A stretch of 25,897 nt of DNA from positions 1 to 25,897 of IMG/VR virus record IMGVR_UViG_3300008516_000622; one strand, given 5' to 3'. Every line of letters starts with the position of its first letter. Positions within the stretch are counted from its first letter, which is position 1. The stretch comes from a virus. The notes beneath the pieces are model-generated. The model had not been told where the DNA came from, ran no database searches, and saw nothing but the letters and a program-made list of their open reading frames with translations. Positions 699 to 24,293 of this stretch are shown one piece after another. The position numbers were made by a program, and so were the translations under genes.

Positions 699-1292
699 TC
701 ACGACCCAGAAAGATCGCTCGGCAGCCACAATTCCCACGGCTCGTCGTATGGCGAAGCCAGGGATGCGTGGCCGGTCCACTTGGCGGCGATGACCGCCTC
801 ATCGTTCGGCCCCAACGGAATCGCCAGCGGCGACTCTGGCAGCGCGTTCGAGATGATCGCGACGAAGGGCAGATCGTTGCCGTGGATCGTCCCGACCAAG
901 GCGAGGTTGTCGAGGTAGTCGCCAGCCTCCACCGGTCCCCCCGTGATGACGGTGTAGTCTGGATCGCTGTCATCCGAATCCGCTCCCGCGATCAGGCGTG
1001 CCATGTTGTTCGGGAACAGTTCCAGCGCGTTCGTCTCGATGGTCGCGACGACACGGCTGCGCCGCCGCAGTCCCTTGGTGGGGCCGATGGCCCCGTCCAC
1101 GGTGATCTCCCGGATCTCCCGCTCCACCGTGAACGTGCTTCCGCCCCGCGTCGCCCCGATGCAGATTCCGGGGTTGTCTGCATCGATGAAGTTGGCATAG
1201 ATGGCCCCGGCGTCGATGAGAATGCGACTGGGGGTGTCGCCCGAGAGGCCGTTGAGCCCCAGGTCGCCCGGCATCGTCGGCAGGCTTGCCAT
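699..1292 (-). CDS. Major tail tube protein
   Basis: This 197-residue protein fits the size and position of a siphophage major tail (tube) protein, just before the tail assembly chaperone and its frameshift site. The N-terminal half contains a motif typical of such proteins, with a GAIYANF segment followed by GATRGGSTFTVEREIREI and VDGAIG, consistent with a beta-sandwich tube subunit. The protein would polymerise around the tape measure into the tail tube. The start at 1292 has a GGAGGAG SD site close upstream. The gene is preceded by a leader carrying several hairpins (1358-1433) and followed by a 13-bp hairpin, an arrangement shared with the major capsid gene. Seen: motif, position, SD site. 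Family call is from recall; no search was run. Confidence 0.85.
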   Translation of the reverse strand: MASLPTMPGDLGLNGLSGDTPSRILIDAGAIYANFIDADNPGICIGATRGGSTFTVEREIREITVDGAIGPTKGLRRRSRVVATIETNALELFPNNMARLIAGADSDDSDPDYTVITGGPVEAGDYLDNLALVGTIHGNDLPFVAIISNALPESPLAIPLGPNDEAVIAAKWTGHASLASPYDEPWELWLPSDLSGS

Positions 1293-1474: not shown

Positions 1475-1645
1475 TCAGCGTCCGCGGTTTTGTCCCTGTC
1501 CGCGTCCGCCGCCGCCTCCTCGGCCGGGGCCGCCAGCAGGACAGGGTGATGTGTTTCGTCCGCCCCCCTGCCCGCCCGGCACCCCGCGGCCGCCGCCGCG
1601 TCCGTCCTGCGGCCTTGCACCGCCGCCTGGTCGCTGTGAAGCCAT
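1475..1645 (-). CDS. Small Gly/Arg-rich low-complexity protein (56 aa)
   Basis: This short reading frame starts MASQRPGGGARPQ and continues as RGG/GRG repeats (GRGGGRG, GGRGQGQNRGR) to the stop. It is supported by an excellent SD site (AAGGAGAAG, 4 bases before ATG at 1645) and by its place between the Ntn hydrolase gene stop (1656) and the tail leader. It contains a single Cys. RGG-rich sequences often bind RNA or are structurally disordered, but I cannot assign a function. The composition overlaps the first 20 residues of the prohead protease in this window, which are also Gly/Arg-rich before a zinc ribbon, so it may be a relative lacking the ribbon. Overlapping frames reading this strip as Ala/Asp-rich lack such an SD site. 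Confidence 0.6.
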   Translation of the reverse strand: MASQRPGGGARPQDGRGGGRGVPGGQGGGRNTSPCPAGGPGRGGGGGRGQGQNRGR

Positions 1646-1655
1646 GATCTTCTCC

Positions 1656-2168
1656 TTACTCCCTCGGTACTCGCATGATGTTGACTGGCTTCTCGCAATA
1701 GATAGACAGTTCACACGCGCAGTCGATAGCCTCTTCAACGGAGCGTCCAAGGTGAAGGGCCGCCAACGCATAGTCCATACCTGCTCCTATTGCGAAAAAG
1801 TCCAGCACTTCTCGCACGTAGTAGTTGTGGCTGTAGAATGCTTTCTCGCCGAAGACTATAAGGAAGCTGTTTTGCCCCCCCGTGATCTTCGGTTTGTCAT
1901 ACTCGTTCTGCTGGTGCAACCATCCAGCGCATTCATGGAGCCAGCTAAGGACCGCCTCTTCATCTGTCGCTCTCGGTATGTGAGTTGCGGCATAGGTGCG
2001 AAGCAGAAAGCCACCTTGACTTTCCCCCACGTTGCCGATGATGAAGCCAGGGCGCACCTCGGCCAGCTTCGCGAACTGGTCCTTCTCCTGTGTTGTCCCG
2101 CGGACACGAATGCTGTCTGCCCCGATCACGATCTCCGTGTCTGTTACCTTGATAGCGACGACGCTCAT
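1656..2168 (-). CDS. Proteasome/HslV-like Ntn hydrolase
   Basis: This 170-residue protein resembles the N-terminal nucleophile hydrolase fold of proteasome beta subunits and HslV. After removal of Met1 the chain starts with Ser1 (SVVAIKV). In that numbering Asp falls at 17 (IGADS) and Lys at 33 (AKL), exactly the spacing of the Thr1/Asp17/Lys33 catalytic set of proteasomes and HslV, with Ser replacing Thr. The C-terminal part (FFAIGAGMDYALAALHLG, then SVEEAIDCACELSIYC) matches the conserved GxGxxxA helix region of such hydrolases. The start at 2168 has an AGGGA SD site. It lies between the tail completion and Gly-rich genes. Substrate is unknown; roles in structural protein maturation or host protein degradation are inference. 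No partner unfoldase (HslU/ClpX-like) is visible. Confidence 0.75.
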   Translation of the reverse strand: MSVVAIKVTDTEIVIGADSIRVRGTTQEKDQFAKLAEVRPGFIIGNVGESQGGFLLRTYAATHIPRATDEEAVLSWLHECAGWLHQQNEYDKPKITGGQNSFLIVFGEKAFYSHNYYVREVLDFFAIGAGMDYALAALHLGRSVEEAIDCACELSIYCEKPVNIMRVPRE

Positions 2169-2177
2169 CTTGTTTCC

Positions 2178-2636
2178 CTATGCTCGCGTCTGCATGTCCG
2201 CCACTTCCGCGGTCGGGTACAGACGCATCGTCCAACTTGTAGATCTCCGCCACACCTCCGACTCGGGCTGGCTGAGGTTGAAGTCGCCTGCGAACATCAG
2301 CCTCCCCCTGAACTCGTCGCATTCGATCACGCGCCTGTTGAGCAAGGCCTGCACCCGCTTCCTCATCTCGAACAGCCGACTGCTGGATGGATCGCAGTCC
2401 CAGAGGTCAAGCCGCAATTCGGCGGTCTGGTAGCCGTCCTCCGTCCCGAGCGGGCGCACCGTCGCGTCCACCGTCATGTAGGGAAACTCGCAGTTCTTTG
2501 GGGCCCAGACGTGGTGATAGCGGAGTTCGCCTTCGTCCTCACCCTCATCAGCGAGAATGGTGAGTAGTTCGCTGTCCTCTGCGAGGATCGCCCGTACCTC
2601 CTCTATCATCGCCACTACTGTGTCCCTATCGCTCAT
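2178..2636 (-). CDS. Tail completion/terminator-type protein (gp17-like)
   Basis: This 152-residue protein follows the gp10-like gene with an ATGA start/stop overlap and precedes the tail genes, the usual place of the tail terminator or minor tail protein that caps the tube at the head-proximal end. The sequence has an N-terminal helix (MIEEVRAILAEDSELLTILAD), a beta stretch (FPYMTVDATVRP), an AELRLDLWD strand, and a helix with a KRVQALLN motif, in the order expected for the gp17/DUF3168-type fold. The ATG at 2636 has a GGGAGAC SD site. The assignment rests mainly on gene order and secondary-structure-like pattern, so it is moderate. Confidence 0.6.
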   Translation of the reverse strand: MSDRDTVVAMIEEVRAILAEDSELLTILADEGEDEGELRYHHVWAPKNCEFPYMTVDATVRPLGTEDGYQTAELRLDLWDCDPSSSRLFEMRKRVQALLNRRVIECDEFRGRLMFAGDFNLSQPESEVWRRSTSWTMRLYPTAEVADMQTRA

Positions 2637-3139
2637 AGCATCCGTCTCCCGAGAACCCCGTGTACCTCGTCGCGCGTGTGCTCCAGTGCCGGCCGCAGCG
2701 AAGGCCGCGGTGCCATCCCCGCGCTCGATCCGTGCGAGTACCCGGGCGGTAGGTCACTCTGTCCAGCGGCCGCACCGCGCCTGCCAGTCCCGAACTCAAG
2801 CCACGGCGCTTTCTCCATGTCGGAACCGACCAGGGCCTCCCACTCACCCGTCAACGGGCTTCGCCGAGAAATCGCCTTCACCGAACGCCGCAAGTCCCCC
2901 AGCGCCACCGCTGGCGGCTCGCCTGGTGCCGACGCGATGTAGCTCCCCTTCCCGCCCGGGATATTGTACACACGCCCGCTCCTCTGACCGCTCAGGGTAT
3001 GGAGCCAGTCCCGCTTCACGATGTTGGCGGCGGCGTAGGTGCGCTTCCGCGCCTCCCCGTTGAGCCGCTTCGCCACCTCGTCGAGGAAACTTGTGAGCTT
3101 GATATTGCCGCCCGGCCCGAATGCCCTGATCATCGCCAC
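2633..3139 (-). CDS. HK97 gp10-like tail completion protein
   Basis: This 168-residue protein has the layout of HK97 gp10-like neck/tail completion proteins: a helical N-terminus (VAKRLNGEARKRTYAAA), a WLHTLSGQRSGRVY segment, a YIASAPGEPPAVALGDLRRSV segment, VGSDMEKAPWLEFGTG, and a PRPSLRPALE motif near the end. These are characteristic and well conserved here. I chose the GTG at 3139 because GGAGGT lies 9 bases upstream; the ATG three codons later is the alternative. The start shares one base with the TAG stop of the head closure gene (TAGTG). It would act at the head-tail interface with its neighbours. Confidence 0.8.
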   Translation of the reverse strand: MAMIRAFGPGGNIKLTSFLDEVAKRLNGEARKRTYAAANIVKRDWLHTLSGQRSGRVYNIPGGKGSYIASAPGEPPAVALGDLRRSVKAISRRSPLTGEWEALVGSDMEKAPWLEFGTGRRGAAAGQSDLPPGYSHGSSAGMAPRPSLRPALEHTRDEVHGVLGRRML

Positions 3140-3471
3140 TACCGCTGTACCTCCTGCGCAATCAACACCGTGCATTCATTGTGTCGGTGGTTGTACTCGG
3201 GCGGCTCAATTGCCCGGTAGTAGCGGCCGTCGAGCACGAACCGCGTGTTCGCAATGTCGATCTTAAGCTCGCCCCGCAACATCAGCCGTTCCGTTCTCTC
3301 CTCGTGCCCGCGCTGCGCGAGCACCATTGCATAGTGCGTCGAGACCGCTGCCCGCCGGCACCAGCGCGTCGCTGATGTCTCCCACTCCGTGGCAACTTGT
3401 CCGAATGTCCCGTCAGTGGACGTGCGGGTCTGTATCTCCACGCGACTTCGGTACGCACCAGCCTCCAGCAT
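3139..3471 (-). CDS. Head closure / head-tail adaptor protein
   Basis: This 110-residue protein begins MLEAGAYRSRVEIQ and includes TEWET and a YYRAIEPPEYNHRHNE stretch, the pattern of the phage head-tail joining (SPP1 gp16 / HK97 stopper) family, which is a small beta-barrel of about this length. It seals the head pore below the connector after packaging. It sits between the connector and gp10-like genes as in HK97-type operons. ATG at 3471 is preceded by AAGG. A 58-base spacer separates it from the connector stop at 3530; that spacer holds only a 16-codon reading frame I do not consider a gene. Confidence 0.75.
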   Translation of the reverse strand: MLEAGAYRSRVEIQTRTSTDGTFGQVATEWETSATRWCRRAAVSTHYAMVLAQRGHEERTERLMLRGELKIDIANTRFVLDGRYYRAIEPPEYNHRHNECTVLIAQEVQR

Positions 3472-3529: not shown

Positions 3530-4198
3530 TTAAGTCCCAGGCATCTTCCGGTGCGGCGCCCACAACTCTTCCGCCAACGACGGCGCGCCATAGTTGGTGG
3601 CACCCCGCCCGCTGACAGCCTCCGTCGCGATTCCGTCCTGCCGCTGGTCGTACATCCAGGCTATCGTCCGCAGGACACCCGTCCGCACCGCCTCCGGAAT
3701 GTCCGTCTGCGTCCGCCGCGCCCGACACGACAGTGTGCTCACAACCTGGCTCAACGTCACCGGTTCCTTGCGCCCGGTCCGCCAGGTCAAGGAGATCTCG
3801 ATCCCGTCCTGTGCCGCCAACACGTTCAGAGCGCCGTACATCTGGTCGTTTATGATCTCCGCCAGGTTCTCCGCGGTCTCCATGTCGGTCCCTCCGATGG
3901 CGAAGTCCTGTAGCACCACGTCCTGGGTGCGTGAGGCTGGTTCCTCCGCGGCCACCCGGAACGTCATGCCGTCCACGCCAACCGAGTCGCCGACCGCTGC
4001 CGAAATGACGAAGATAACGGCGCGCAACACCTCGAATGGATTGTTCAGAAAGCCGTCGGCATGCTGCTTCGCCGCGTCGATCAGCGTCGTGATGAGATCA
4101 TCATCGGCCTCGTGCTCGACGCGCAGGTAGAGTTTCACCGATGCCAGTTCGGTCAACTCTCCAACGCTCAGATCCAGTCTGTCAACGCACGCGCCCAT
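3530..4198 (-). CDS. Head-tail connector protein (gp6-like) with inserted domain
   Basis: The N-terminus (residues 18-55, ASVKLYLRVEHEADDDLITTLIDAAKQHAD) and C-terminus (about 166-190, DIPEAVRTGVLRTIAWMYDQRQ) match the helical gp6-like head-tail connector family. The family is normally only about 100 residues; here 222. The extra roughly 100 residues (about 60-162) form a beta-rich block with the pattern GDSVGVDGMTF, FAIGGTDMETAENLAEIIND and PVTLSQ. That pattern occurs as a repeat-like module in various phage tail and adhesin proteins. The insertion is in frame and the flanking connector parts look intact. The start overlaps the preceding stop (TGATG). It would form the ring between portal and head closure protein, with the inserted domain possibly exposed at the neck. 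Confidence 0.7.
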   Translation of the reverse strand: MGACVDRLDLSVGELTELASVKLYLRVEHEADDDLITTLIDAAKQHADGFLNNPFEVLRAVIFVISAAVGDSVGVDGMTFRVAAEEPASRTQDVVLQDFAIGGTDMETAENLAEIINDQMYGALNVLAAQDGIEISLTWRTGRKEPVTLSQVVSTLSCRARRTQTDIPEAVRTGVLRTIAWMYDQRQDGIATEAVSGRGATNYGAPSLAEELWAPHRKMPGT

Positions 4199-4488
4199 CA
4201 GTTCTCCTTGTCAGCGGCGGCCTGCCGATGATGAGCGATAGCCTCTTCGCGGGTCGGAAAGGACGGTCCGTTGTCGATGCTGTATCCCACCGTCACGCTC
4301 TCTTTGATCTCGGTAGGCCCAGGACGTTCCTGTGTCTCCTCTGGCTCGATCACGTCAGGGGCCTCATCGTCCTCCACTACCTCGACCAGCCGTCGGCGCA
4401 CCAGTTCGTGGGCGCTCGATGCTGAAAGTTCCAGCACATCGCCCCGCTTCGCCCTGCCCGCCAGCCTCCGCAATGCCCGCACTTTCAC
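4198..4488 (-). CDS. Nested in-frame product: small head-operon protein (96 aa)
   Basis: Within the glycosyltransferase gene, a GTG at 4488 is preceded by GGAGGAGG at 4497-4504, eight bases upstream, one of the strongest SD matches in the window. Initiation here would yield a free 96-residue protein starting VKVRALRRLAGRAKRGDV and ending with an acidic linker and a SIDNGPSFPTREEAIAHH tail. Small proteins of the pattern xVRxLRxFxG...GDVVEVPxxxAxxLxxRGxxE are common just before phage connector genes (recall, no search). I infer that the glycosyltransferase was inserted upstream and fused in frame while the original start survived. Whether both products are made is unknown. Confidence 0.5.
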   Translation of the reverse strand: MKVRALRRLAGRAKRGDVLELSASSAHELVRRRLVEVVEDDEAPDVIEPEETQERPGPTEIKESVTVGYSIDNGPSFPTREEAIAHHRQAAADKEN

Positions 4489-5565
4489 TGTGCCATCCTC
4501 CTCCATGTTAGTTACTGGCGCGTCGCTGGCTCGGGCTCCACTCATCGCCCTTTCCCGCCACTCGTCAGTTATTCTGATGAGTTCACCCTCGAGACGGTCC
4601 AACTGCGGTGTCGGCCCAAGTTCCGCTGATCGTTTCAGCGCGGCCGCCGACGCTTCGGCATACGCACGCTCATCATCCAACATCGTGATGGCATCAACCC
4701 ACTGCTCGGGCTTGTACCGATCACAGAAGGTTCCCGCCTCCCCGAGCGACTCCACCAGCCCCGGCGTCGGATGGGCGATTGTAGGGATGCCGCTTGCTGC
4801 CGCTTCTATGCCGATCCTCCCGTAGCTCTCGGTCCACCAGCGCATTCCGGGTGTGCCCAGGTCCTGGCTTGGCATAAGGACGATGCGCGCCCTCTGGTAA
4901 AACTCCCGCGGGTCAAGGCAGTGCTCCATGATCTCGGCGTTCGGGGGAACACGCTTCGGCACAGCCTGCGCGCCCCAGCCGCCCTTCACGGCGAGGAACT
5001 TGTGGTCCGGCATTCTCCTCGCCAGCTCCCAGAACAGAGCGCCCCCCTTCTCGGCGCAGAAGTTGACCAGGACCATGCGGTCGCCCGTCTTCTCGACCCG
5101 ATAGTCATCCGGGTAGATCAGGGGATACAGGACCATCGCGTTGTCGTCGCGCCCATTCTTTCGGGCCTCATCCATGACCCACTCGGCGTTGTAGATCGCG
5201 AGCTGGACCTGCCTCGGCTTGCACTTGTACAGGGCTAGCTGCCCCTCGTCGTGCACCAGGTGGGCCAGGGGTTTCCTGTAGGCCTTGCACAACGCGAGCG
5301 CCTCCGTCGTGGCTTCCCCCTGGGTGATGATGATATCCGCCTCCAAGTACCGCCTTCGCTTGGCCACTGGTAAGGGCGCGGAATAGACATCCTCGATCCC
5401 GAACTGGCAACCACCGTGCGAGCGCGTGGGCTCCAAAGAGCCGCGCTGGAGCATCAGCCCAACGCTGTGCCCGCGCCGGCGCAAGGCATCTAGCGTCAGA
5501 CACATCGTCACCACGCCGCCGCCCCAGCCCCAGCCCAGGTGATACATATGCCCGAGAATCCTCAC
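4198..5565 (-). CDS. GT4-type glycosyltransferase fused to a small C-terminal phage domain
   Basis: This 455-residue protein has a GT-B glycosyltransferase as residues 1 to about 340. It starts VRILGHMYHLGWGWGGG (Rossmann start with Gly-rich loop) and has an EX7E motif at Glu246/Glu254 (ESYGRIGIE) followed by GIPTIAHPTPGLVESLGEAG, typical of GT4 donor-nucleotide sites. The last 96 residues (KVRALRRLAGRAKRGDVLELS, then ELVRRRLVEVV) look like a separate small protein of the kind found just before connector genes in phage head operons. An internal GTG with its own perfect SD lies at this boundary. GTG at 5565 overlaps the previous stop (GTGA) and has GGAGG upstream. Donor and acceptor sugars are unknown. 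Three methyltransferases precede it, suggesting synthesis of a methylated glycan. Confidence 0.8.
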   Translation of the reverse strand: MRILGHMYHLGWGWGGGVVTMCLTLDALRRRGHSVGLMLQRGSLEPTRSHGGCQFGIEDVYSAPLPVAKRRRYLEADIIITQGEATTEALALCKAYRKPLAHLVHDEGQLALYKCKPRQVQLAIYNAEWVMDEARKNGRDDNAMVLYPLIYPDDYRVEKTGDRMVLVNFCAEKGGALFWELARRMPDHKFLAVKGGWGAQAVPKRVPPNAEIMEHCLDPREFYQRARIVLMPSQDLGTPGMRWWTESYGRIGIEAAASGIPTIAHPTPGLVESLGEAGTFCDRYKPEQWVDAITMLDDERAYAEASAAALKRSAELGPTPQLDRLEGELIRITDEWRERAMSGARASDAPVTNMEEDGTVKVRALRRLAGRAKRGDVLELSASSAHELVRRRLVEVVEDDEAPDVIEPEETQERPGPTEIKESVTVGYSIDNGPSFPTREEAIAHHRQAAADKEN

Positions 5566-6143
5566 CCTGACTGCCTCCTCAGAATCGCCATCCCGTATCG
5601 AATCTCATAGGTGTACCGTTTCGTCGCCAACAGCTTCTCCCGAATTGCCCGCGCCACGCCCCACTCCTCCGTCGCCGCGTCGTGGAAAGCCATGACGCCG
5701 TCAGGGGCAATCCGCGGGCTCCACACGTGGATGTCGCGGCATACCCCCTCGTAGCTGTGGTCCGAATCCACGAAGAGCAGCCCCACCTCGCCGTCCAGTT
5801 CACGCGCCGCCTGCTCTGTGTCGACCTGCAACGGGAGAACTTGGCTGCTTAGGCCCAGGGACCCAATGTTGTCGACCCAGGCGATCTTCACCGCGGGGTC
5901 AGCATACTGGGGCCACGGTGCCTGCTCCCACAGGTCAACCGAGTAGACCAGGGCCATCCCGCCCACCCGCGCTCCAGCGCCCAGGTAGCAACTTGACTTG
6001 CCCTTGTAGGCGCCGATCTCGACGATGATCTGTTCATTGCTGACCGCGCCCGCCAGTTCGGCGAGGATTAGACCCTCTTCGGCCAATATCTCCCCGTGGA
6101 CCTCGGCAAGTCGTTGCTCCATCTCGGGGGTGAGTCGGCTCAC
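5562..6143 (-). CDS. Class I SAM-dependent methyltransferase (Methyltransf_24-like)
   Basis: This is a 193-residue class I methyltransferase. SAM-binding motif I is IIVEIGAYKGKS (about 39-50). The family signature FVDSDHSYEGVCRDIHVW, then GVMAFHDA, matches the Methyltransf_24 group, many members of which act on sugars or in glycan/cephalosporin-type pathways. I start it at GTG 6143, which overlaps the previous stop (GTGA) and has AGGAGACG upstream; a longer frame to 6308 would overlap the neighbour by 170 bases and is Arg/Gly-rich there. It is closely related in design to the next gene upstream, so the pair probably arose by duplication. Substrate unknown; context with the glycosyltransferase suggests sugar methylation. 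Confidence 0.8.
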   Translation of the reverse strand: MSRLTPEMEQRLAEVHGEILAEEGLILAELAGAVSNEQIIVEIGAYKGKSSCYLGAGARVGGMALVYSVDLWEQAPWPQYADPAVKIAWVDNIGSLGLSSQVLPLQVDTEQAARELDGEVGLLFVDSDHSYEGVCRDIHVWSPRIAPDGVMAFHDAATEEWGVARAIREKLLATKRYTYEIRYGMAILRRQSG

Positions 6144-6745
6144 TTCCGTCTCCTGAACCACGCCGAGAACGGCGGGACGAACTCGATCTCGTCCCAGTCG
6201 CCACTCGCCATGATCTCCTCCCCGATAACCCGGTCCACGCCGGGCCACGCCGGACTCCTCGCATCGTGCATGAGCAGGATGCCGCCCCGCACGACATGCG
6301 GGAGCCACGCCTTCGTATCCGCCAACACGTCCTCGTACTCGTGTCCAGCGTCGATTGCGAGCAACCCGATAGACTGTTCCCAGTCCTTCGCCGCTGCCAG
6401 GCTCTCGGAACGTATCAGGGTGACCAAGTGGCCCACACCGAACCGCTCGGCAAAGCCGCGTGCCACCTTCTCGTTCCGCGGGTCATCGTAGGTCGGCCCC
6501 TGACCGCTCGGCCGAAGGCCGAACAGGTCGATGCCGTAGACATCGACGCCATGCCCGAAATTGGAGCCGGACGCAAGGCTGCAGATGCCCTGCCCTCGCA
6601 ACACCCCGATTTCGACGATGACGTTCGGGGGTTCGACCTCCATCGCGTACCGGAGTTTCGATTCGCATTCCGCCCGCGGCCCGCCTCCGATGATCTCCAG
6701 AAAATCGAGTGCGTCCTGCACCTCGTCAGTTTCTATCGCTGTCAT
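6140..6745 (-). CDS. Class I SAM-dependent methyltransferase (Methyltransf_24-like)
   Basis: This 201-residue protein has motif I VIVEIGVLRGQG (about 42-53), then YGIDLFG, LLAIDAGHEYEDVLADTKAW and GGILLMHDARSP, the Methyltransf_24 pattern shared with the following gene. Similarity of the DxxHxYExVxxD and HDA blocks indicates these two are paralogues. ATG 6745 forms an ATGA overlap with the preceding stop and has GAGGCGG upstream, so I prefer it to the frame opening at 6778. It ends FSAWFRRRK. Cytoplasmic; predicted to modify a sugar or small-molecule intermediate together with its neighbours. Confidence 0.8.
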   Translation of the reverse strand: MTAIETDEVQDALDFLEIIGGGPRAECESKLRYAMEVEPPNVIVEIGVLRGQGICSLASGSNFGHGVDVYGIDLFGLRPSGQGPTYDDPRNEKVARGFAERFGVGHLVTLIRSESLAAAKDWEQSIGLLAIDAGHEYEDVLADTKAWLPHVVRGGILLMHDARSPAWPGVDRVIGEEIMASGDWDEIEFVPPFSAWFRRRK

Positions 6746-7473
6746 TGCCGCCTCACAAAATAGGAGTAGCCATCCCATCCGATGGCCGTCGCGTCTGACA
6801 ACGTCTCGACGACGCGCCCGCCTGCCTTCTCCAGCAGGCCAACAACCTTGCTGCGCTCAATCCCATACATGTCCATGCGGGGGTAGTCGTCCTCATCGAC
6901 TGCTGTTCCGACCGGACCCCACTGTTCGCTGTCCTTGCCACTGGCCTTCCGCGTGCTCGGGAGCTGGAAACACAGGAGCCCTCCCGGCGAGAGCACACGC
7001 AGGAACTCCACTACATAGGGCTCAATCAGCCCTGGTGCCATGTGCTGAAGCGTATTGCGGCTCAGCACGAAGTCGAAGCGCCCGCTCGAACACACGGCAA
7101 GTCCGCTGGACAGGTTCACCACGTAGGCGACATGCGGTTCGACCGTGTGGCTCCTGGCTATCCCGATCATCGTCGGAGAGATGTCCACACCCACGACGCT
7201 CTCGAACCGCCGCGCCAGCGGCCGCGTCAGCCTCCCCACACCACAGCCAAAGTCGAGCGCCGTGCCGCGGGGAAATGCCATCCCCCGCTTCCCCAACTGC
7301 CGCATGAGCCGCGTTATCTCGCGTTCGCCGATAGTGTAGATCGCCTTCAGCGTCCACCGACGCCCCTTGTGGGCCGGGTCGGTCCATACCGCCCACAATG
7401 GGTCGCGGTCGGCGAGGCGTTCCCACTTTGCCTGCAGATCGCGCAGGTAGGTTGTCGAGTCGTCTGCGGTCAT
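6742..7473 (-). CDS. Class I SAM-dependent methyltransferase (UbiE/Methyltransf_25-like)
   Basis: This 243-residue protein has a clear class I SAM fold: motif I ALDFGCGVGRLTRPLA at about 72-87, acidic post-I VVGVDISPTMI, motif IV region FDFVLSRNTLQHM, and LRVLSPGGLLCFQLP. This type methylates small molecules, sugars or lipids rather than DNA; no target-recognition domain is present. It is the first gene after the capsid gene hairpin and starts a four-gene block (three methyltransferases and a glycosyltransferase) with ATGA/GTGA overlaps, so the block is translationally coupled. ATG at 7473 has AGGGA only 1-2 bases upstream, a suboptimal spacing suggesting modest initiation. Confidence 0.8.
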   Translation of the reverse strand: MTADDSTTYLRDLQAKWERLADRDPLWAVWTDPAHKGRRWTLKAIYTIGEREITRLMRQLGKRGMAFPRGTALDFGCGVGRLTRPLARRFESVVGVDISPTMIGIARSHTVEPHVAYVVNLSSGLAVCSSGRFDFVLSRNTLQHMAPGLIEPYVVEFLRVLSPGGLLCFQLPSTRKASGKDSEQWGPVGTAVDEDDYPRMDMYGIERSKVVGLLEKAGGRVVETLSDATAIGWDGYSYFVRRQ

Positions 7474-9027: not shown

Positions 9028-10368
9028 CTAGCGTAGGGAGCGAGCGAATTCCTCCAGGTCATCCCTGACCCGGACTCCCTGCACGAACCTGGATAGGTCC
9101 GCCCCGATCTGCTTGAGCGCAGGACTGAGGGCCTCTCCGCCTCCGTTCGGCGAGGGCGGACCGTCATGGCCCGGCGTCGCGTCCCGGAGAGCCTTGAGGG
9201 CGTCAATCAGTTGCGTCAGATAGTCGGGGTTCGACAGGCGGCCACCGGTGATGTCATCGCGCATGGCCGCGAAGCGCCTCACGGCAAGGGCATAATCGTT
9301 GCCCTTCACTCCCGTCACTCGTGCGAGTCTGTTCATCCCCCAGGTGACGGGGGAATAATCCATCAGATGCACCTCGATGAGATCGCGGATCCCCGTCTCC
9401 TCATCCGTCAAGGCCTTCACGGTGTTGTAGCCGATGCTCATCTCCTTGACCGCACCATCGTGGAGAAGGACGAGCGCATCATTGCCCCTGCTCGTCCTGG
9501 AGATGTAGCTACGCGTGAAAAGACCAGACGAGTCCTCCTCGACCACCCGGGGTACACCTATCGGCCAGAACCAGTCATGCTGCCAGCAGAAGCGGATGTC
9601 CTCGAACGACTCCGCAAGGGTCTTCTCGAACATCCCGCGGTTCGCCCGGTCCTGGCCCTCGTCGACGTTGCCGAAGATAGAGACGTATGCCTCAACGATC
9701 CGGCCTTCCTCATCCACCTTGAACTCACTGGGGTATGACTTGAACTCCATGCCGCCTTCGATGCTGGTGGCCTTGCTCTTCCAGGGTGCTTGCACTGTCT
9801 CGTCCTCCCACTCCCGCCGCATCTTCGCGTAGTAGCGGCCGATGTGCGCCTTGACCTTCGACGCGTCCGACTCCGGTATGTCCACGCCGCCGCGGGCCCC
9901 CTGTATTGCGGCTGCCGCCGCGAACACACCGCGCGGCACTGCCACCAGCGAGCCCTCGATCACGTCCGCAAACTGGAGCTTGTAGGCCCCGAATGTATCC
10001 GCGGCCCCACCATCGAACCAGAAGAAGGCGCGGCGGTACTTGGCGTTCGGCTTCTCATCTGCCTCCGACCACTTGCGCACCCGCTTGTCGGCCGCGGTCT
10101 TATCCCAACGCCGGCCGCGGGGTCCCAGCGGCAGATCGCCAAAGGACGTAGCACCCTTGACCGTCACGGTGGCGCGGGCAGAGGCGCTTTCCAGTTCATC
10201 TTTCCCAACCATTGGCGTACCGCAGTCGGGACACTCCATCTCCGAGCACGCCACACCCCGCTCGTGCTCGGCTTCTGTCCCACATTCCGGGCAGACACAC
10301 GTATCGGTCCCGCCGTCCCCCTGCCGCGGGCCGCCAACGCCGCGCCCGTCACCACGTCCCTTATCCAT
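9028..10368 (-). CDS. HK97-family prohead protease with N-terminal zinc ribbon
   Basis: This 446-residue protein carries the S78-type prohead protease in its second half (about 205-350): EFKSYPSEFKVDEEGRIVEAY, YVSIFGNVDEGQD, catalytic-type His264 (WQHDW) and Ser311 (EMSIGYN). It cleaves scaffold domains inside the prohead. Ahead of it are a Gly/Arg-rich start (residues 3-20), a zinc ribbon with CPEC (26-29) and CPDC (46-49), and a conserved-looking segment (about 88-182, RRWDKTAADKRVRKW to YYAKM) seen in other phage proteases. An internal ATG (Met207) sits exactly at the usual start of the protease domain. ATG 10368 has GAGGAGAAG upstream and overlaps the previous stop. The extra N-terminus is more than 200 residues beyond a minimal protease. 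Confidence 0.88.
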   Translation of the reverse strand: MDKGRGDGRGVGGPRQGDGGTDTCVCPECGTEAEHERGVACSEMECPDCGTPMVGKDELESASARATVTVKGATSFGDLPLGPRGRRWDKTAADKRVRKWSEADEKPNAKYRRAFFWFDGGAADTFGAYKLQFADVIEGSLVAVPRGVFAAAAAIQGARGGVDIPESDASKVKAHIGRYYAKMRREWEDETVQAPWKSKATSIEGGMEFKSYPSEFKVDEEGRIVEAYVSIFGNVDEGQDRANRGMFEKTLAESFEDIRFCWQHDWFWPIGVPRVVEEDSSGLFTRSYISRTSRGNDALVLLHDGAVKEMSIGYNTVKALTDEETGIRDLIEVHLMDYSPVTWGMNRLARVTGVKGNDYALAVRRFAAMRDDITGGRLSNPDYLTQLIDALKALRDATPGHDGPPSPNGGGEALSPALKQIGADLSRFVQGVRVRDDLEEFARSLR

Positions 10369-11296
10369 GCTTCTTCTCCTCTGCTGGCACCGACCTGTCG
10401 ATTCCGCTCAGGTTGTGGCCGATGCCGCAACGCTTCAACACCATCGGGGCGAGGTCTATCTGTGCCGCCTCCTCTGATCGCAGGGAGTATGTGGATTGTT
10501 TCAGCGCCAGGACACCGCGCAAGCTCTCAGGCAAATCACTCCCGTGTCCCCGACCCCGTCCGTCTGGTTGCGCCGCTGCCGAGCAATCCAGCCCGTGATC
10601 CGAGAACACGATGGTGGCCTCCGGCTCAAGCGCATCGACGACATTCTCGACCGAATCCAGGATCCCAGCGATGATAGCGGCTCGCGCTCCCCCGTCCTGC
10701 ATTGCCGAATATGCGTAGTGGCAGAGCCGGTCCAAGTCCATGATGCCGAGGAACGCCAGCATAGGCTCATGCCGGCGGACCCCCGCGATGAAGGTGCGTA
10801 CAAGCCGCTCGCGCCGGTCCGCACATCCCTCAACGTGTTCTTTCGCCGCGGTCTGGAGCAGCTTCTTTCGCACGTCATTCCCTGCCACAGCCAGTTCGTG
10901 CTCGTTCGAGAAGTCCAGATCCTCGTAGCTCCACTGCTCCTGCGGCGGCTGCACGAAATGCTGACGGCCAGCAGGGTAGCCGCTGACCAGCACTCCCGCC
11001 GTGGGCCCGGGCCGTATCAGGAAGGGCCAGTTAACGATGACCAGCCGCCCGCCCGCAGCCTGCAGCCGTTCCCACAAATAGAGCGGCCGTTGCTTGCCTC
11101 TCCGCCCGAACTCGACATAGCTGTTCGGGTTTTCCGTCAGGCCCCACGTAGAAGCGTCCACCCCCGTCCCGAGGGTGTTCCATGCGAGCCAGCTGACCGG
11201 CTTCGGCGCGAGTAACGGGGCGACATCGAATCCGCGGTGCCTCAGCGCGCCGGACCATGCCCAGCTATAGCCGTCTATGCCAATCAGCAGAATCAT
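10361..11296 (-). CDS. Type I phosphodiesterase / alkaline phosphatase superfamily enzyme
   Basis: This 311-residue protein has the metal-site layout of the alkaline phosphatase superfamily (type I phosphodiesterase/nucleotide pyrophosphatase branch): Asp8 in LIGIDGYSW, a nucleophile candidate Ser35 in PKPVSWLAW followed by GTGVDASTWG, Asp189 and His193 (DRLCH), Asp233-His234 (FSDHGLD), and His251 (GRGHG). The usual Thr nucleophile appears to be Ser and the usual HGI is WGL, so specificity may differ. ATG 11296 overlaps the previous stop (ATGA). It is paired with a KpsS-like gene, suggesting removal or transfer of a phospho-group on a glycan, or sugar-nucleotide cleavage. Phosphatase, phosphoglycerol/phosphoethanolamine transferase or sulfatase activity cannot be separated from sequence alone. 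No signal peptide, so cytoplasmic. Confidence 0.7.
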   Translation of the reverse strand: MILLIGIDGYSWAWSGALRHRGFDVAPLLAPKPVSWLAWNTLGTGVDASTWGLTENPNSYVEFGRRGKQRPLYLWERLQAAGGRLVIVNWPFLIRPGPTAGVLVSGYPAGRQHFVQPPQEQWSYEDLDFSNEHELAVAGNDVRKKLLQTAAKEHVEGCADRRERLVRTFIAGVRRHEPMLAFLGIMDLDRLCHYAYSAMQDGGARAAIIAGILDSVENVVDALEPEATIVFSDHGLDCSAAAQPDGRGRGHGSDLPESLRGVLALKQSTYSLRSEEAAQIDLAPMVLKRCGIGHNLSGIDRSVPAEEKKHG

Positions 11297-12480
11297 CGTT
11301 CGCCCCATGCCAGAATTGCTTCCCAGCGCTGGATCAGGGCCGCCTGCGCGTGTCCCCAGTACGGGTAGCCCCAGAAAGACTCAGGGGACCAGTCGGGCAA
11401 CCACGCCCCCTCTGGCACCAAATATGCCTCCATGCGCGCAACATGCTCGCAGACGGCCTGCCACTGCCCTGGTGTCTGATCACCCACCTGCCAAGTGTCC
11501 CCAGCCCTCATATCCACGGTGAAGCCCCGCCCCGAATGGGGACCGTGACCGAACGAGAACGCGGCCCTCCTGGACATCGCCGCCTCCAGCAGAACATTGC
11601 TGTTGATCGCGGCGACTGCCGAGCTCATGCGGAGCAGATCATGGATGCTCTCGTTGGCGGACAGCCACATCCCGCCCTTAGCCTCCACCTCCATCTTGCA
11701 GAGCCGCCGTTGCTCCGCGAACTCTGGCTCCCACTCGATTCCCTCAGATGCTGGATGCTGTTTCACGAGTACGGGCCCGGGCCAGGTTAGGCACTTGCAG
11801 ATGAAGTCGCGCTGGCAAGCGAACTCGGTGTGCTGGTAGACAGCCGCCCCATCTGCTTCGAGCTGCATCGCTACCAACAGCGCCGGGCCTGCCTTGCAGA
11901 ACTCCTGCACGCGTTCCGATGGCTTACCGCCCTGGTGATGCTTGCTCAGCCGCGCGTCGCGCCATAGATCGATGATCGCCTTGCCCCGCCAGCCCCCAAC
12001 ACGAACATGCCGCAGGCCATCCCATCCGCACGGGCCGGTCACGTAGCCGCCGAGCATATCGAAGATGCGCGTCTGCGGCAGCCACCCATGTTCACAGTGT
12101 ATGACTGGAATCCCGCGCTCGCGCGCCAGTAGCGTCCACACAGCCTGATCGGCATTCCCACAGTTCCACAGCAGGATAGCTGCCGTTCGCTCCCGGTCCA
12201 GATACTCCCCGGCGGCGAACCAGAAGCGGGCCACGACATCCAGGATCTCGTCCTGGTCGGCCCCCGATACCTCGGATCGCCGCATTTCCTTCGGCGCTAG
12301 CCGGCGCAGGATGTCGTCTTCAACCTGCTTCCGCGGGCCGCCGCGCCACTCCCCGAGAAATGCCATTTGCACCACATGCTCGGCCGCGATCTCGGGCGGT
12401 ATCTGCGCCATCCAATCCGCAGGCATGGGCGCTGGCGGTGGCCCCTCGGCGTGCCAGTCTATCGGGATAATGATCCTCAC
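11293..12480 (-). CDS. Capsule-polysaccharide-type glycosyltransferase (KpsS/LipB-like)
   Basis: This 395-residue protein resembles the capsule Kdo/glycosyltransferase group (KpsS/LipB, GT-B-like). Features: RGIPVIHCEHGWLPQT (family pattern GxPvxxxExGxLPxT) in the middle, PVLVKQHPASEG (conserved basic K-x-HP) in the C-terminal half, and SSAVAAINSNVLLEAAM (acceptor/donor loop SxxxxEAL). Trp-rich C-terminus (SPESFWGYPYWGHAQAAL). GTG 12480 overlaps the portal stop (GTGA) and has GGAGGGG upstream. It sits between the portal and protease genes, where core head genes are normally adjacent, so it is an accessory insertion. It may add sugar to a host surface glycan or to a phage protein; neither can be shown here. 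Confidence in family moderate, function low. Confidence 0.6.
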   Translation of the reverse strand: MRIIIPIDWHAEGPPPAPMPADWMAQIPPEIAAEHVVQMAFLGEWRGGPRKQVEDDILRRLAPKEMRRSEVSGADQDEILDVVARFWFAAGEYLDRERTAAILLWNCGNADQAVWTLLARERGIPVIHCEHGWLPQTRIFDMLGGYVTGPCGWDGLRHVRVGGWRGKAIIDLWRDARLSKHHQGGKPSERVQEFCKAGPALLVAMQLEADGAAVYQHTEFACQRDFICKCLTWPGPVLVKQHPASEGIEWEPEFAEQRRLCKMEVEAKGGMWLSANESIHDLLRMSSAVAAINSNVLLEAAMSRRAAFSFGHGPHSGRGFTVDMRAGDTWQVGDQTPGQWQAVCEHVARMEAYLVPEGAWLPDWSPESFWGYPYWGHAQAALIQRWEAILAWGER

Positions 12481-14651
12481 GCGCTCAGCCCCTCCACGAT
12501 ATGCCCGACTGTGCATCGGCACGCGATGACCTCAGCCGCCGGTGCGCCTGCCTCATTTGGATACAGCAACCCGTTGGAAAATGCCTCCTCCATCCCTACG
12601 ATCTCCCCATTCACCGCAGCGTGCGAATCCCGCACCCGAGAGTCCCCGGAACTGATCCACTCCTTGAGCACGACGGCATCCGTCTCTTTGACGACCTGCC
12701 GGGCCCCCTCGTGGTGCCCGAAGTTCACCGCCGCACCCGCCTCCGTCCGGGCGATCATGAAGCTCCGGCTCCGGTCCAACGGCGAGTCCCCTTTGCCTGC
12801 CCAGTTCGCGTAGGCCTCGCGGATCCGCCGCGCGATATCCGCCGCGCCCTCATTCTGCGACACCCCCGCGGCCACGGCCTCGGCAATGGCATCCTTCGTC
12901 GTTTCTGACATAATGGATATGTGTTCGGCAGTCGTGGTCCGAATGAAGTGGTCCACTTCCGGGTCATCGAAGTTGAACGCCCAGGAACGTTCCTTGCCCT
13001 CCCACTCCTTCCGTTCGAGGTCTCCCATATTCGGGGCCGCCTTGGGCAACGCCCGAATGATTCGCCTGCCCTCAAGCGTCCCGAAGTGCTTCACCATAGC
13101 CCCATAGACAGTGAGCCAGTAGCCCGTCCACGATGTTGCTGCCAGGTTGATCGCTCCAGTGATCGCGCCCTGGCCACCATCCTCGTACGCGGCCGCGACC
13201 TGCTCACCCTCGGCCCCGAATATCTCCGCCACCCCCTCAGCTACCCGCTGCTCCCACCGGGCCCGGTCGTTGTCGAAGGCTTTGTAGTAGGCCGCCTTCT
13301 CCTGCTCAGGCATCCCCGCTTTCGTCTCGATCGCCGGGACCGCCCTCTTCCCCACGACACCCGTTCCCATACCTGGCGCCCCGGGCTCCTTGCCCCCCCA
13401 CGCTAGATCGCCCCCGGGAACCAGGTGGAAGCCTAACTCCATGCGCTGGTTCAGTTCATTGAACGGCACACCCATCTCCCAAGCCTCGCGTGCAGACTTG
13501 AGGGCCTCTCTCCAGATCTCTTGCATCGCCGGCACGCCGGACACGTCATATCTAACGCGAATGACCTTCTTCGTCGGATCGCTCAGGCCCTCAGGATTCC
13601 AGTACGGAGTGAACTTGAGGTCCAACGCGTCGGCAATGTCATCGAGAAGCGGAATGATCGTATCCTGCCAGAACATACGGCGGCCTGTCGCCATGTTGTT
13701 GAACGTTGTCCGCTCCTGCGTGACTAACACGACGGGGACGCCGAACACGTTGCAGATGCTGGCAACGTTGAAGTAGCGGCTCTTCAGAAAATCCATCTCG
13801 ACCGGGCTGAGAGACATCTGCGTATAGCTAGCATCTGCCCCCAGCACCCAGGGCATATGAGCGTTGGCGGCTCCCGTGTGCTGCTCCCGCACGTGTTCGC
13901 GTGCAGTCTCCCATTGCTCGTCGGTCAGCGGATACTTGAATGCGAAGAGTCCATCGGTCACGGCCCGGTTTTGCAGGCTGATCTTGTTCCAGCGCACCGC
14001 CTCCACGTCGGTATCCACCGTCTGCATGGCAGCCCGAAGCGGGGCCAGTCCCCAGAACGGATTCGCCGGGTCGATGAATTGGAGGTGACATATCTCAGCC
14101 GCGTCCAGCCGGATCTTCTTGCTGCCAAGATGGTATTGATACCCAGCGAGTTCGAGCCCCCGCCCGCTCGGCAGCGGCTTGATCTGATCAGCGGGAAGCG
14201 GCACCAATTGGAGCGGAATCCCCTTGCTGTTCCGCTCAATATGCCAGAAGGCGTTCCCGCCGAGGTACAAATGGTGTGCCGTCCGCTCGAACAGATCCTG
14301 ACGGCTCATCTGCGGATTCGGCTGCGCGAGTAAGTTGCCGAGTGGGTGCGTGTCGTCGCGCTCCCACTCGTCCTCACTCACCCGCTGCTCCACAAACCAG
14401 GGAACCGAAGACATGGCAGATGCCAGCTTCCTCACGCACGAGTAGACCCACTCCGAGGCCTTCAGGCCGTTGCGGATCGCGCTCTCCGTGCTCCACTCGG
14501 TCCACACGGGTCGGGCGACCTGCTGGGGCGGTATGAGTGCCAGCGACTCCCGTGCCGCCCGCGCCGCGGCCTTGGCGGCCGCGGTACGCTGCGAGGGCGT
14601 CAGCGGCGGTGACTTGCCGAGTATCCCCGCCAATCTCTCTCTCAGGCCCAC
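12477..14651 (-). CDS. Portal protein fused to MuF-type minor head protein
   Basis: This 724-residue protein has two parts. Residues 1 to about 420 form a HK97-type portal (SEWVYSCVRKLASAMSSVPW, LYLGGNAFWHIERN, EICHLQFIDPANPFWGLAPL, FGVPVVLVTQERTTFNNM). A helical linker follows, and from about 560 a MuF/SPP1-gp7-like head morphogenesis domain, ending MIARTEAGAAVNFGHHEGA, GDSRVRDSHAAVNGEIV and a final VIACRCTVG (the family's CRC motif). Separate portal and MuF genes are more common; fusions are known. The dodecameric portal is the DNA gate; the MuF part is expected inside or near the portal. GTG 14651 is preceded by GAGGG. It has a dedicated promoter and hairpin leader upstream (14700-14882). 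Confidence 0.9.
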   Translation of the reverse strand: MGLRERLAGILGKSPPLTPSQRTAAAKAAARAARESLALIPPQQVARPVWTEWSTESAIRNGLKASEWVYSCVRKLASAMSSVPWFVEQRVSEDEWERDDTHPLGNLLAQPNPQMSRQDLFERTAHHLYLGGNAFWHIERNSKGIPLQLVPLPADQIKPLPSGRGLELAGYQYHLGSKKIRLDAAEICHLQFIDPANPFWGLAPLRAAMQTVDTDVEAVRWNKISLQNRAVTDGLFAFKYPLTDEQWETAREHVREQHTGAANAHMPWVLGADASYTQMSLSPVEMDFLKSRYFNVASICNVFGVPVVLVTQERTTFNNMATGRRMFWQDTIIPLLDDIADALDLKFTPYWNPEGLSDPTKKVIRVRYDVSGVPAMQEIWREALKSAREAWEMGVPFNELNQRMELGFHLVPGGDLAWGGKEPGAPGMGTGVVGKRAVPAIETKAGMPEQEKAAYYKAFDNDRARWEQRVAEGVAEIFGAEGEQVAAAYEDGGQGAITGAINLAATSWTGYWLTVYGAMVKHFGTLEGRRIIRALPKAAPNMGDLERKEWEGKERSWAFNFDDPEVDHFIRTTTAEHISIMSETTKDAIAEAVAAGVSQNEGAADIARRIREAYANWAGKGDSPLDRSRSFMIARTEAGAAVNFGHHEGARQVVKETDAVVLKEWISSGDSRVRDSHAAVNGEIVGMEEAFSNGLLYPNEAGAPAAEVIACRCTVGHIVEGLSA

Positions 14652-15163: not shown

Positions 15164-15231
15164 GCGGCAACTGAATCTGTGATCCATGGATCCACGTAGG
15201 CGTCATAGAACCACGTCTGCCAGCGGCTCAT
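15142..15231 (-). CDS. Possible small protein (29 aa), Trp/Tyr-rich
   Basis: ATG at 15231 forms an ATGA overlap with the stop of the upstream methyltransferase, with AAGG about 10 bases before it. The peptide begins MSRWQTWFYDAYVDPW and has four Trp in 29 residues. The tight coupling is like that of real genes in this window, but the length makes it uncertain. No function proposed. Confidence 0.35.
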   Translation of the reverse strand: MSRWQTWFYDAYVDPWITDSVAAWGRYGS

Positions 15232-15944
15232 CGCGCCTGTGCCTTCGTCGCCACAAAGAACATGTATGCCCCCCTCAAGTCTGCCGCCCTGTCCAGCGGC
15301 GAGAATCGACCTGTTGCCGGGTGCTGCCGCTCCAAGCTCAGGACCCCGAACCCTTGTGCTGCCAAGGCATCCTCGACCTCCGCAAGCGTATACTCCCGCG
15401 CATGGTACGGGTTGCCCTGGGGCTTGTGTGGCGTCGAGAGCACGAGCAGTCCCTCCGGACGCAGGACCCGAGCGGCATCGGCCAGGAGCGGTGCCGGATC
15501 AGTGAAGCGCTCCAGCGTCTCGAGGCAGACGAAGGCGTCCACCGATCCGGGCTCCGGGATGATCGGCCACGGCCTTGCCGTGAGATCAGCCCGTACCCAG
15601 AGGATCCGCGAGTGGGCGTAGTGGAGCATGGCATAGCCACATAGCACAGGGTTGCGCTCCAGTGCCCAGACGTTGGCACCCACTATCGCCTCCGCCAGCA
15701 CGTAGGCGCCATACCCGACGCCAGAACCAGCGTCGATGATCAGGCTCGCTCCATGCGTGCCATCGGATATCCTATCGGCAGCGTGCTCGTAGCGCGCGAC
15801 GTGCGCGGGGTACCGTCGTCTCACCGCCTCCACCGTCGGGCAGCTCGCCGCAAACCGCGCCGCTACAACTTGCTCCGGCTCCGCCTTGAAGCCACCGCGG
15901 CGTTCAATTTCAGCCACCATCCCATCTGGTATCTTTCCTGCCAT
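15228..15944 (-). CDS. Class I SAM-dependent methyltransferase (UbiG/Methyltransf_11-like)
   Basis: This 238-residue methyltransferase has motif I IIDAGSGVGYGAYVLAE in its middle, followed by VWALERNP, then VDAFVCLETLERF and ARVLRPEGLLVLSTPHKP, the small-molecule class I pattern. The C-terminal YTLAEVEDALAAQGF is typical of the UbiG/Methyltransf_11 group. I start it at ATG 15944 (GGAGAGG upstream) rather than at the TTG six codons earlier. It lies directly after the CmoA-like gene. No DNA target domain, so it is unlikely to be the DNA modification enzyme. Substrate unknown; sugar or tRNA-related small molecule are both possible. Confidence 0.75.
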   Translation of the reverse strand: MAGKIPDGMVAEIERRGGFKAEPEQVVAARFAASCPTVEAVRRRYPAHVARYEHAADRISDGTHGASLIIDAGSGVGYGAYVLAEAIVGANVWALERNPVLCGYAMLHYAHSRILWVRADLTARPWPIIPEPGSVDAFVCLETLERFTDPAPLLADAARVLRPEGLLVLSTPHKPQGNPYHAREYTLAEVEDALAAQGFGVLSLERQHPATGRFSPLDRAADLRGAYMFFVATKAQAR

Positions 15945-15969
15945 TGCCCTCTCCTTCACCAAGCCCAGC

Positions 15970-16683
15970 TTATTCGGCCACGGCTATCCATCCAGCGAAG
16001 TTCATCCAACGCCAGAAGCAGTCAACGGTCTGGAATCCCGCCATCCGAAGCAGTTCCTCGTTCCATGCCGCCGTAACCGGAACCAGTACCCCCTCCAGCG
16101 ACAGACGCTTGCGCTTGATCTGATCTTCCGTGTACCCCTGGCGCCGTTTCATGTCGAGATACTCTGCGACGAAGGCCTTGTCGAGTCGAGCATTGGCACC
16201 GAGCACCTTCTCCACAACGATAAAGGCACCACCAGGCACCAGGCAGTCGTGCGCGTCCTGGACGATGCGTTGCCGGTATTCGATTGGGACGAACTGGAGC
16301 GTCAGGATCCCCATGACGACGCTCGCCCTCTCTGGAGGAAAGGTCTCCCGCAGATCGAGTTCCCTGATGTCCACAATCCCAGAACTCATATAGCCATTGA
16401 ACCGTTCCCGCGCGGCAGCCAGCATTGGCTCTGACACGTCGACCCCGACGAATCGACACTGCGCACCGAACTTGTCCACGAACGGCTGCAGCGCTTCTCC
16501 CCTGGAACACCCAAGGTCGACGATGCTCGTGCCGGGCTCTACATGCCGACAGCCGAGACGGAAGACTGTCTCGCGCATGACTTCGTACTGAGGTATGCTC
16601 CGCCTCAGCATGTCATCGAAGACGGCCGTCACATCGCCGTCGAACGTCCAGTGCTTGCCGGGTAGTACAGAGTCGTGTCCCAT
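15970..16683 (-). CDS. CmoA-like carboxy-SAM synthase homologue
   Basis: This 237-residue protein matches CmoA along its length, by comparison with the E. coli sequence as I recall it: WTFDGDVTAVFDDMLRRSIPQY (CmoA WTFDERVAEVFPDM), VEPGTSIVDLGCSRGEA, LTLQFVPIEYRQRI, LVPGGAFIVVEK, YLDMKRRQGYTEDQIKRKR-LSLEG and the aromatic end FWRWMNFAGWIAVAE. Arg193 aligns with E. coli Arg199, which binds the carboxylate of carboxy-SAM. CmoA turns SAM and prephenate into carboxy-SAM, which CmoB uses to make cmo5U at the tRNA wobble base. No CmoB is visible here. ATG 16683 has GGAGAGA 7 bases upstream. It could serve host-type tRNA modification, a novel carboxymethylation, or be an ordinary methyltransferase that keeps the fold. 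Fold confidence high, exact reaction moderate. Confidence 0.75.
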   Translation of the reverse strand: MGHDSVLPGKHWTFDGDVTAVFDDMLRRSIPQYEVMRETVFRLGCRHVEPGTSIVDLGCSRGEALQPFVDKFGAQCRFVGVDVSEPMLAAARERFNGYMSSGIVDIRELDLRETFPPERASVVMGILTLQFVPIEYRQRIVQDAHDCLVPGGAFIVVEKVLGANARLDKAFVAEYLDMKRRQGYTEDQIKRKRLSLEGVLVPVTAAWNEELLRMAGFQTVDCFWRWMNFAGWIAVAE

Positions 16684-22056: not shown

Positions 22057-23003
22057 GGTTTCGGCACCGCCAGGTAGCTCTGGGCCCATTGGGCCAGAGC
22101 GGATGCCCTGTCGCCACCATCAAGTTCGCCCCGGGCCTGCATCACATCCAGGGCCTTGGCGATCACTGCGGCATCTTTGGGTTTGAGTCGATCCTTCCCG
22201 AGGACGCTAGCCAGCGGTACAGGGTGCCCGTGTTTGGGCTCACCCGTCTCTGTATCCCGCCACCCCTCCTCAAGGTCTCCCCGATGCTGCTCGAAGACAT
22301 CCAGCAGAATCATCAGCGCCGTCGCGCCATTGGTGAGGTCATTTGCCGCCCTCACCTCATCCAGATCATCCAGGAAGCGATCATACTCTGATACCCGGGC
22401 CAGAATGGTATGATCAGGTTTCGGCAACGCAGACAGCCCCTTGAGAACATCTTTCAGCCTCTCTATCTCTTCTGGCAGAAAAGCGAAGGTCACCACGAGC
22501 AGATCCAGGTTGGCTTCGCTCAGACCGGCCAAGGCCACCTTCTCCATCTCGTCCAGAACCTTCGAGTCCAGGCCGGCATATTGCTTGAGCTCCATTGCCT
22601 CGATCTCCTCGTACAGGCTCCGCAGGATGGCCATGTCATCCTCACCCGCCAAGGCATTGTGCGATAGCTGTACAGCAACTTGCTCCTCTCGCGTCAGGTC
22701 CGCCTCGGTGTAAAGAACCAGCACCTCTGCCAGGCCGGCTTCCCGCGCCGCCATGACCCGATGATTGCCAGACATCGCTCGAAACGTCCCTTCCGGTGTG
22801 CGACAGCAGAAGGGGACTGAGGTCAGGGCGCCATCGCGGCGGATGTTGTCCACGAGGTTGCGGAAGGTCTCGTTCCGCATGAACCGAGCATTCTTCTCGA
22901 GTAGCTCGATGCTCCCAACCGGCACTATGGCCAGCTTGAGCCCCTTGGGCAGCCGCTTGTTGATCTCCCCTACGTCATCTTCCCGTGCTTCTCCATCCAC
23001 CAT
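22053..23003 (-). CDS. ParB N-terminal domain protein (ParB-like nuclease family)
   Basis: This 316-residue protein has a ParB-N/Srx-type domain at about 25-115: VPVGSIELLEKNARFM, then LVDNIRRDGALTSVP and the signature MSGNHRVMAAREAG (GNHRV at 79-83). The rest is helical (EEIERLKDVLKGL, DDLDEVRAA) with no clear HTH, unlike chromosomal ParB. In phages such domains occur beside DNA modification and terminase genes, and are proposed to be nucleases or CTP-dependent switches. ATG 23003 is chosen for its GGAGGAAG SD; a GTG eight codons earlier is the alternative. It overlaps the preceding gene by 34 bases. Its stop is inside the tRNA promoter. Confidence 0.75.
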   Translation of the reverse strand: MVDGEAREDDVGEINKRLPKGLKLAIVPVGSIELLEKNARFMRNETFRNLVDNIRRDGALTSVPFCCRTPEGTFRAMSGNHRVMAAREAGLAEVLVLYTEADLTREEQVAVQLSHNALAGEDDMAILRSLYEEIEAMELKQYAGLDSKVLDEMEKVALAGLSEANLDLLVVTFAFLPEEIERLKDVLKGLSALPKPDHTILARVSEYDRFLDDLDEVRAANDLTNGATALMILLDVFEQHRGDLEEGWRDTETGEPKHGHPVPLASVLGKDRLKPKDAAVIAKALDVMQARGELDGGDRASALAQWAQSYLAVPKP

Positions 23004-24280: not shown

Positions 24281-24293
24281 TTCACCCTCGCGG

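Follow-up and report, generated by a model that had tools for sequence, protein, structure and literature searches.

Background

Homologs of the proteasome that are borne by phages were described by Fuchs, Alva and Lupas in 2021 (PMC8665760), who placed two types, PPH and AAH, in group I together with HslV and BPH, and who reported neither a co-occurring AAA+ partner nor a known function for either type. According to the same work, PPH is a protein of about 140 aa from which helix H2 is absent, and AAH occurs in many phage genomes; BPH forms a double heptameric ring, helices H3 and H4 provide the main between-ring contacts, and connectase, another proteasome-like family member, is a monomeric ligase from which the first helix pair is absent (PMC8665760). 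Phage proteasome homologs are common and their active site is well conserved, and they are functionally uncharacterised: no functional study of a phage member of the family came up in our literature search.

The present work concerns a gene of this kind in an IMG/VR virus record (IMGVR_UViG_3300008516_000622), of which positions 1 to 25,897 were analysed; this stretch of 25,897 nucleotides is referred to below as the window. A sequence-only reading had proposed the encoded Ntn hydrolase as a new phage component, a claim that does not hold, because such genes are present in hundreds of phage records, in many with an annotation, and PPH and AAH are published. The hydrolase is a further member of this known and widespread family of phage proteasome homologs. 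A tblastn search with the window protein returned 11 phage records, and searches with two of those 11 relatives returned 459 and 332 records, many of which already bear the annotation HslV-family peptidase, protease or ATP-dependent protease. No match was obtained in the plasmids searched for relatives, and a search of genome contigs with a two-sequence alignment of the subfamily confirmed no relative. As a separate observation, actinobacteriophages (Microbacterium, Arthrobacter) carry a family gene annotated simply as “protease” (L003 4574-5104, L100 6001-6528), and the E. coli phage Bas73, which can be cultivated, has a family member too.

The gene and its active site

The gene and the codons discussed in this section are as follows.

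1656..2168, minus strand: proteasome-like Ntn hydrolase gene (170 aa, ATG at 2168, stop at 1656; PHROG 1040)
2160..2168, minus strand: Met-Ser-Val start, with no propeptide; the predicted nucleophile is Ser2, mature Ser1
2115..2117, minus strand: codon for Asp18 (mature Asp17)
2067..2069, minus strand: codon for Lys34 (mature Lys33)
1683..1712, minus strand: codons for ELSIYCEKPV, within the subfamily signature ACELSIYC(E/S)xP

The extent of the gene had been given correctly in the sequence-only reading, which left its minus-strand orientation unstated. An AGGGA motif lies a few bases 5' of the ATG, and 9 bases separate the start from the end of the preceding tail-completion/neck gene. With Met counted, the residues of interest are S2, D18, K34 and G48, which correspond to Ser1, Asp17, Lys33 and Gly47 of the mature protein, so that the proposed spacing of Ser1, Asp17 and Lys33 after removal of Met1 is indeed present in the 170-aa ORF. 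When every ATG, GTG or TTG start opening at least 60 aa was scanned on both strands of the window, the hydrolase alone, out of 912 starts, combined Ser or Thr at position 2 with D18 and K34.

These residues are strongly conserved. Ser or Thr at mature position 1 and Asp17 are both present in 37 of 37 non-redundant phage relatives (less than 70% identity), and Gly47 is present in 34 of the same 37. In alignment A2, which is a different set of 37 sequences headed by the window protein, Lys33 is invariant and G47 is conserved at 90% or more, and a Lys33-equivalent was found in each of 37 divergent phage relatives. An apparent loss of Lys33 in about 20 sequences was rejected, as it reflects an alignment shift of about 2 residues; the five apparent exceptions among the non-redundant relatives are likewise alignment shifts, the Lys standing a few residues further on. 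With Ser/Thr1 and Asp17 unchanged and a Lys33-equivalent in every relative, the catalytic set does not vary freely among the homologues.

The window hydrolase and its five closest relatives, which are 39-46% identical to it, constitute a near subfamily of six members in which S1, D17, K33, G47 and ACELSIYC are all invariant. The C-terminal “AIGAGMDYALAALHLG” region, which had been said to fit the proteasome-like assignment, belongs to the family core. The presence of Ser155 in place of a proteasome Asp166-like residue was considered as a peculiarity and dropped, Thermotoga HslV having Cys at that place (“GEICIYTNQNI” in the profile alignment). Ser serves less well than Thr as the nucleophile of the proteasome, so peptide hydrolysis by the hydrolase could be weak.

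Predicted fold

The AlphaFold2 model of the hydrolase, computed as a monomer from an alignment of 37 phage sequences, has a pLDDT of 91.1 and a pTM of 0.87 and shows the Ntn alpha-beta-beta-alpha sandwich. Helix pairs H1/H2 and H3/H4 are both retained, H1 (50-62) and H2 (70-90) coming after the Gly47 strand and before the one that follows it. In the comparison with the PDB by Foldseek, 1,096 chains match the model at E<=0.001, and all 50 of those listed are BPH, HslV or 20S proteasome; among these matches listed BPH is at the top with a TM of 0.83, followed by HslV (0.67-0.68) and 20S beta subunits. Superposition on HslV had been suggested as a check, and the result is that the sandwich is present and that BPH is the better match. 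The Foldseek viral library yielded many phage relatives, and some of these carry the name HslV or proteasome subunit. When the 37-sequence phage alignment behind the model was used as a profile, it matched PDB chains of BPH, HslV and the proteasome with E values down to 6e-12; the profile was needed, as a single-sequence phmmer search of the PDB with the hydrolase gave nothing significant.

At the level of sequence families, PHROG 1040, “peptidase HslV family”, matches hydrolase residues 1-169 with E=2.1e-16, and four near relatives likewise match it. The Pfam Proteasome model gives a sub-threshold score (E=0.14, 12 bits against a curated cut-off of 22.4), as might be expected of an unrelated phage protein in which Ser, Asp and Lys merely occupy matching positions; the PHROG match, the PDB profile match, the confident fold match and the strict conservation all argue against such a chance resemblance, which is refuted by the fold comparison and whose probability is negligible. 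The fold prediction, the PDB comparison and PHROG 1040 thus agree with the earlier proposal of a proteasome/HslV-like Ntn hydrolase.

The model also bears on whether the protein might act, as a monomer or low-order oligomer, as a specific transpeptidase or ligase in the manner of connectase, rather than as a compartmentalised protease. The inclusion of this monomeric ligase in the family (PMC8665760), the compact subunit and the failure to find an unfoldase partner are compatible with such an activity, but the closest fold among the PDB matches listed is that of double-ring BPH, and the model keeps both H1/H2 and H3/H4, whereas connectase is without the first pair (Fuchs et al.). A connectase-like activity is accordingly considered quite improbable.

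Relation to described families

The homology of the hydrolase to PHROG 1040, which contains genes from Jerseyvirus, Kagunavirus, Rhizobium, Klebsiella and Microbacterium phages, extends over the whole length, and the two have in common the set S/T1-D17-K33-G47, the absence of a propeptide and an unfoldase that was not found. The hydrolase has less than 30% identity to most members, and it differs in having Ser rather than Thr as nucleophile, in its ACELSIYC signature and in its location inside the neck operon of the window phage.

PPH resembles the hydrolase in being phage-borne and group-I proteasome-like with the same catalytic set, but the hydrolase has 170 aa with H1 and H2, whereas PPH has about 140 aa without H2. 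The description of PPH therefore does not apply to the hydrolase; the feature is found in another family member of 149 aa (L013), which has one helix only in the H1/H2 region. On the evidence of the model, the hydrolase is best described as a group-I-like proteasome homolog that does not fit the PPH description. The likeness to AAH is by description only, and consists in group I and in H1 plus H2 (the only exceptions named being connectase and PPH/RPC).

BPH (PDB 5ovs, 5ovu), the closest solved fold among the PDB matches listed, resembles the hydrolase also in having no known unfoldase partner, and differs from it in being a bacterial gene with a longer subunit, a Thr nucleophile and about 20% identity. 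HslV (ClpQ) shares the Ntn fold, the T/S1-D17-K33 set and ring-forming relatives, but no HslU partner gene was found for the hydrolase, and TM and identity to HslV are about 0.68 and 20%. The possibility that the hydrolase is HslV itself was rejected, the NCBIfam HslV models giving no match to it at E<=1; these models show faint similarity to two relatives, L108 and L019.

Search for an unfoldase

The sequence-only reading had seen no unfoldase, and a wider search agrees. No match to the HslU/ClpX-type model PF07724 exceeded the cut-off in 14 records with family members, some of which may be fragments, or in G001, a longer 72-kb record of the window phage; as a positive control, the model found a match in 14 of 14 control genomes. 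The sole AAA match in G001, to PF00004, was rejected as an unfoldase partner and is a DnaC-like loader, and AAA matches in the relatives G005 and G014 were judged from their sequences to be clamp-loader-like.

A host HslU, or another host ATPase, might be hijacked instead, with the hydrolase replacing an HslV subunit or acting as a dominant-negative one. The HslV-like fold and the faint HslV-model similarity of L108 and L019 are in keeping with this, but the low identity to HslV and the absent NCBIfam match for the window protein are against it, and such hijacking appears very unlikely.

Genomic context

The genes around the hydrolase that are relevant to its role are listed below.

699..1292, minus strand: major tail protein, downstream of the hydrolase (phrog_885, E 1e-41)
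2178..2636, minus strand: tail completion gp17-like / head protein, immediately upstream (phrog_957, E 1.4e-8; weak match to Pfam Tail_completion_gp17)
2633..3175, minus strand: Neck1 / tail completion protein (phrog_5, E 1.6e-10)
3139..3471, minus strand: head completion protein (Phage_HCP)
3530..4198, minus strand: head-tail connector (Phage_connect_1)
9028..10368, minus strand: the phage's own prohead protease (Peptidase_S78)

The order on the minus strand begins with a putative terminase (large ORF), portal-MuF, S78 protease, capsid, methyltransferases and a glycosyltransferase, and continues with connector, head completion, neck1, tail completion, Ntn hydrolase and major tail protein. The head-tail setting that had been noticed is therefore real, with four head and neck genes upstream of the hydrolase and the major tail protein downstream.

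Among relatives the setting differs. The L108 hydrolase adjoins terL, behind a gene that is in the usual place of terS and that PHROGs calls a minor tail protein; that of L107 has portal/MuF on one side and a capsid-protease fusion on the other; and that of L019 lies within a glycosyltransferase/methyltransferase island just before terS. In L109 and L110 the neighbouring ORFs, as read from sequence, look non-structural (glycosyltransferase-like, phosphoesterase-like), terL being about 3.6 kb upstream of the hydrolase in L109. In the wider family the gene is found before holins, after early genes or near terL, and for most of the members examined the surroundings are a glycosyltransferase, early, lysis or regulatory region. 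Because the position varies among relatives, a fixed neck role is not indicated, and it is unlikely that the protein is dedicated to neck or tail morphogenesis, as had been suggested.

A related explanation is that the hydrolase is a late-expressed, specific peptidase whose task in assembly is to trim a neck, tail or decoration protein. The gene is co-directional with the neck genes and only 9 bases away from them, and L108 and L107 also have theirs amid head genes; but the position is not fixed, as L109, L110 and most of the wider family show, and the phage is already equipped with an S78 prohead protease, so that this kind of trimming is unlikely.

Proposed role

The explanation that accounts best for the data, to which we assign a probability of about 0.62, is that this is an accessory (moron-like) gene of the late operon whose product, a group-I proteasome-like Ntn hydrolase, is catalytically competent. 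Computation establishes the fold, the conserved active site, the absence of a propeptide and the place directly behind the neck genes. The third-position GC of the hydrolase gene, 0.66 against 0.75-0.84 in the surrounding genes, is consistent with an accessory gene. What counts against the accessory-gene explanation is that several near relatives, beside terL, portal/capsid or neck genes, do belong to the late structural region, so that a function in virion assembly is conceivable.

Most probably the enzyme is an accessory peptidase, expressed late, that works unaided by any phage unfoldase. Met1 would be removed by the host Met aminopeptidase, which would expose Ser1; Ser1, polarised by Lys33 and Asp17, would attack carbonyls; and the subunits might form a ring or double ring of the BPH/HslV type. 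Without a phage unfoldase, the substrates of the enzyme late in infection would presumably be host or phage proteins that are small or unfolded.

A further proposal, which we regard as speculative and improbable, is that the six ACELSIYC relatives with a Ser nucleophile are a distinct, undescribed subfamily which tends to occupy the late head/neck region and may provide an ATP-independent ring peptidase acting on virion or host proteins during assembly. A late-operon, Ser-nucleophile subfamily would represent added diversity and a concrete target within a family that is itself already published and annotated.

A second record of the same phage

The record G001 (IMGVR 3300028837_001398) is 99.996% identical to the window over 24 kb and lacks 97 bp, corresponding to window 1619-1715 (the affected locus is L001 5001-5621). 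With this deletion the G001 hydrolase loses its 19 C-terminal residues, ELSIYCEKPV among them, and is fused to the downstream Ala-rich frame; the deletion is either a natural variant or an assembly artefact. Since the C-terminus encoded in the window agrees with that of the relatives, the window form of the hydrolase is the complete one.

Other features of the window

A small Gly/Arg-rich ORF (MASQRPGGGARPQDGRGGGRG...) with a good AAGGAG ribosome site directly follows the hydrolase at 1475-1645 (minus strand), and overlaps a longer Ala-rich frame. A glycosyltransferase and several methyltransferases, together with phosphodiesterase-like and capsule-synthesis-like proteins, are encoded among the head genes (4198-7473, 10361-12522, 15228-16683), and the island that surrounds the L019 hydrolase is similar in its glycosyltransferase and methyltransferase content. 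The portal protein continues into a fused Mu F-like head morphogenesis domain (12477-14651), and at 22970-24334 a phage Dam-like methylase domain is fused with a phage GNAT-like domain (PF22555 + PF22559).
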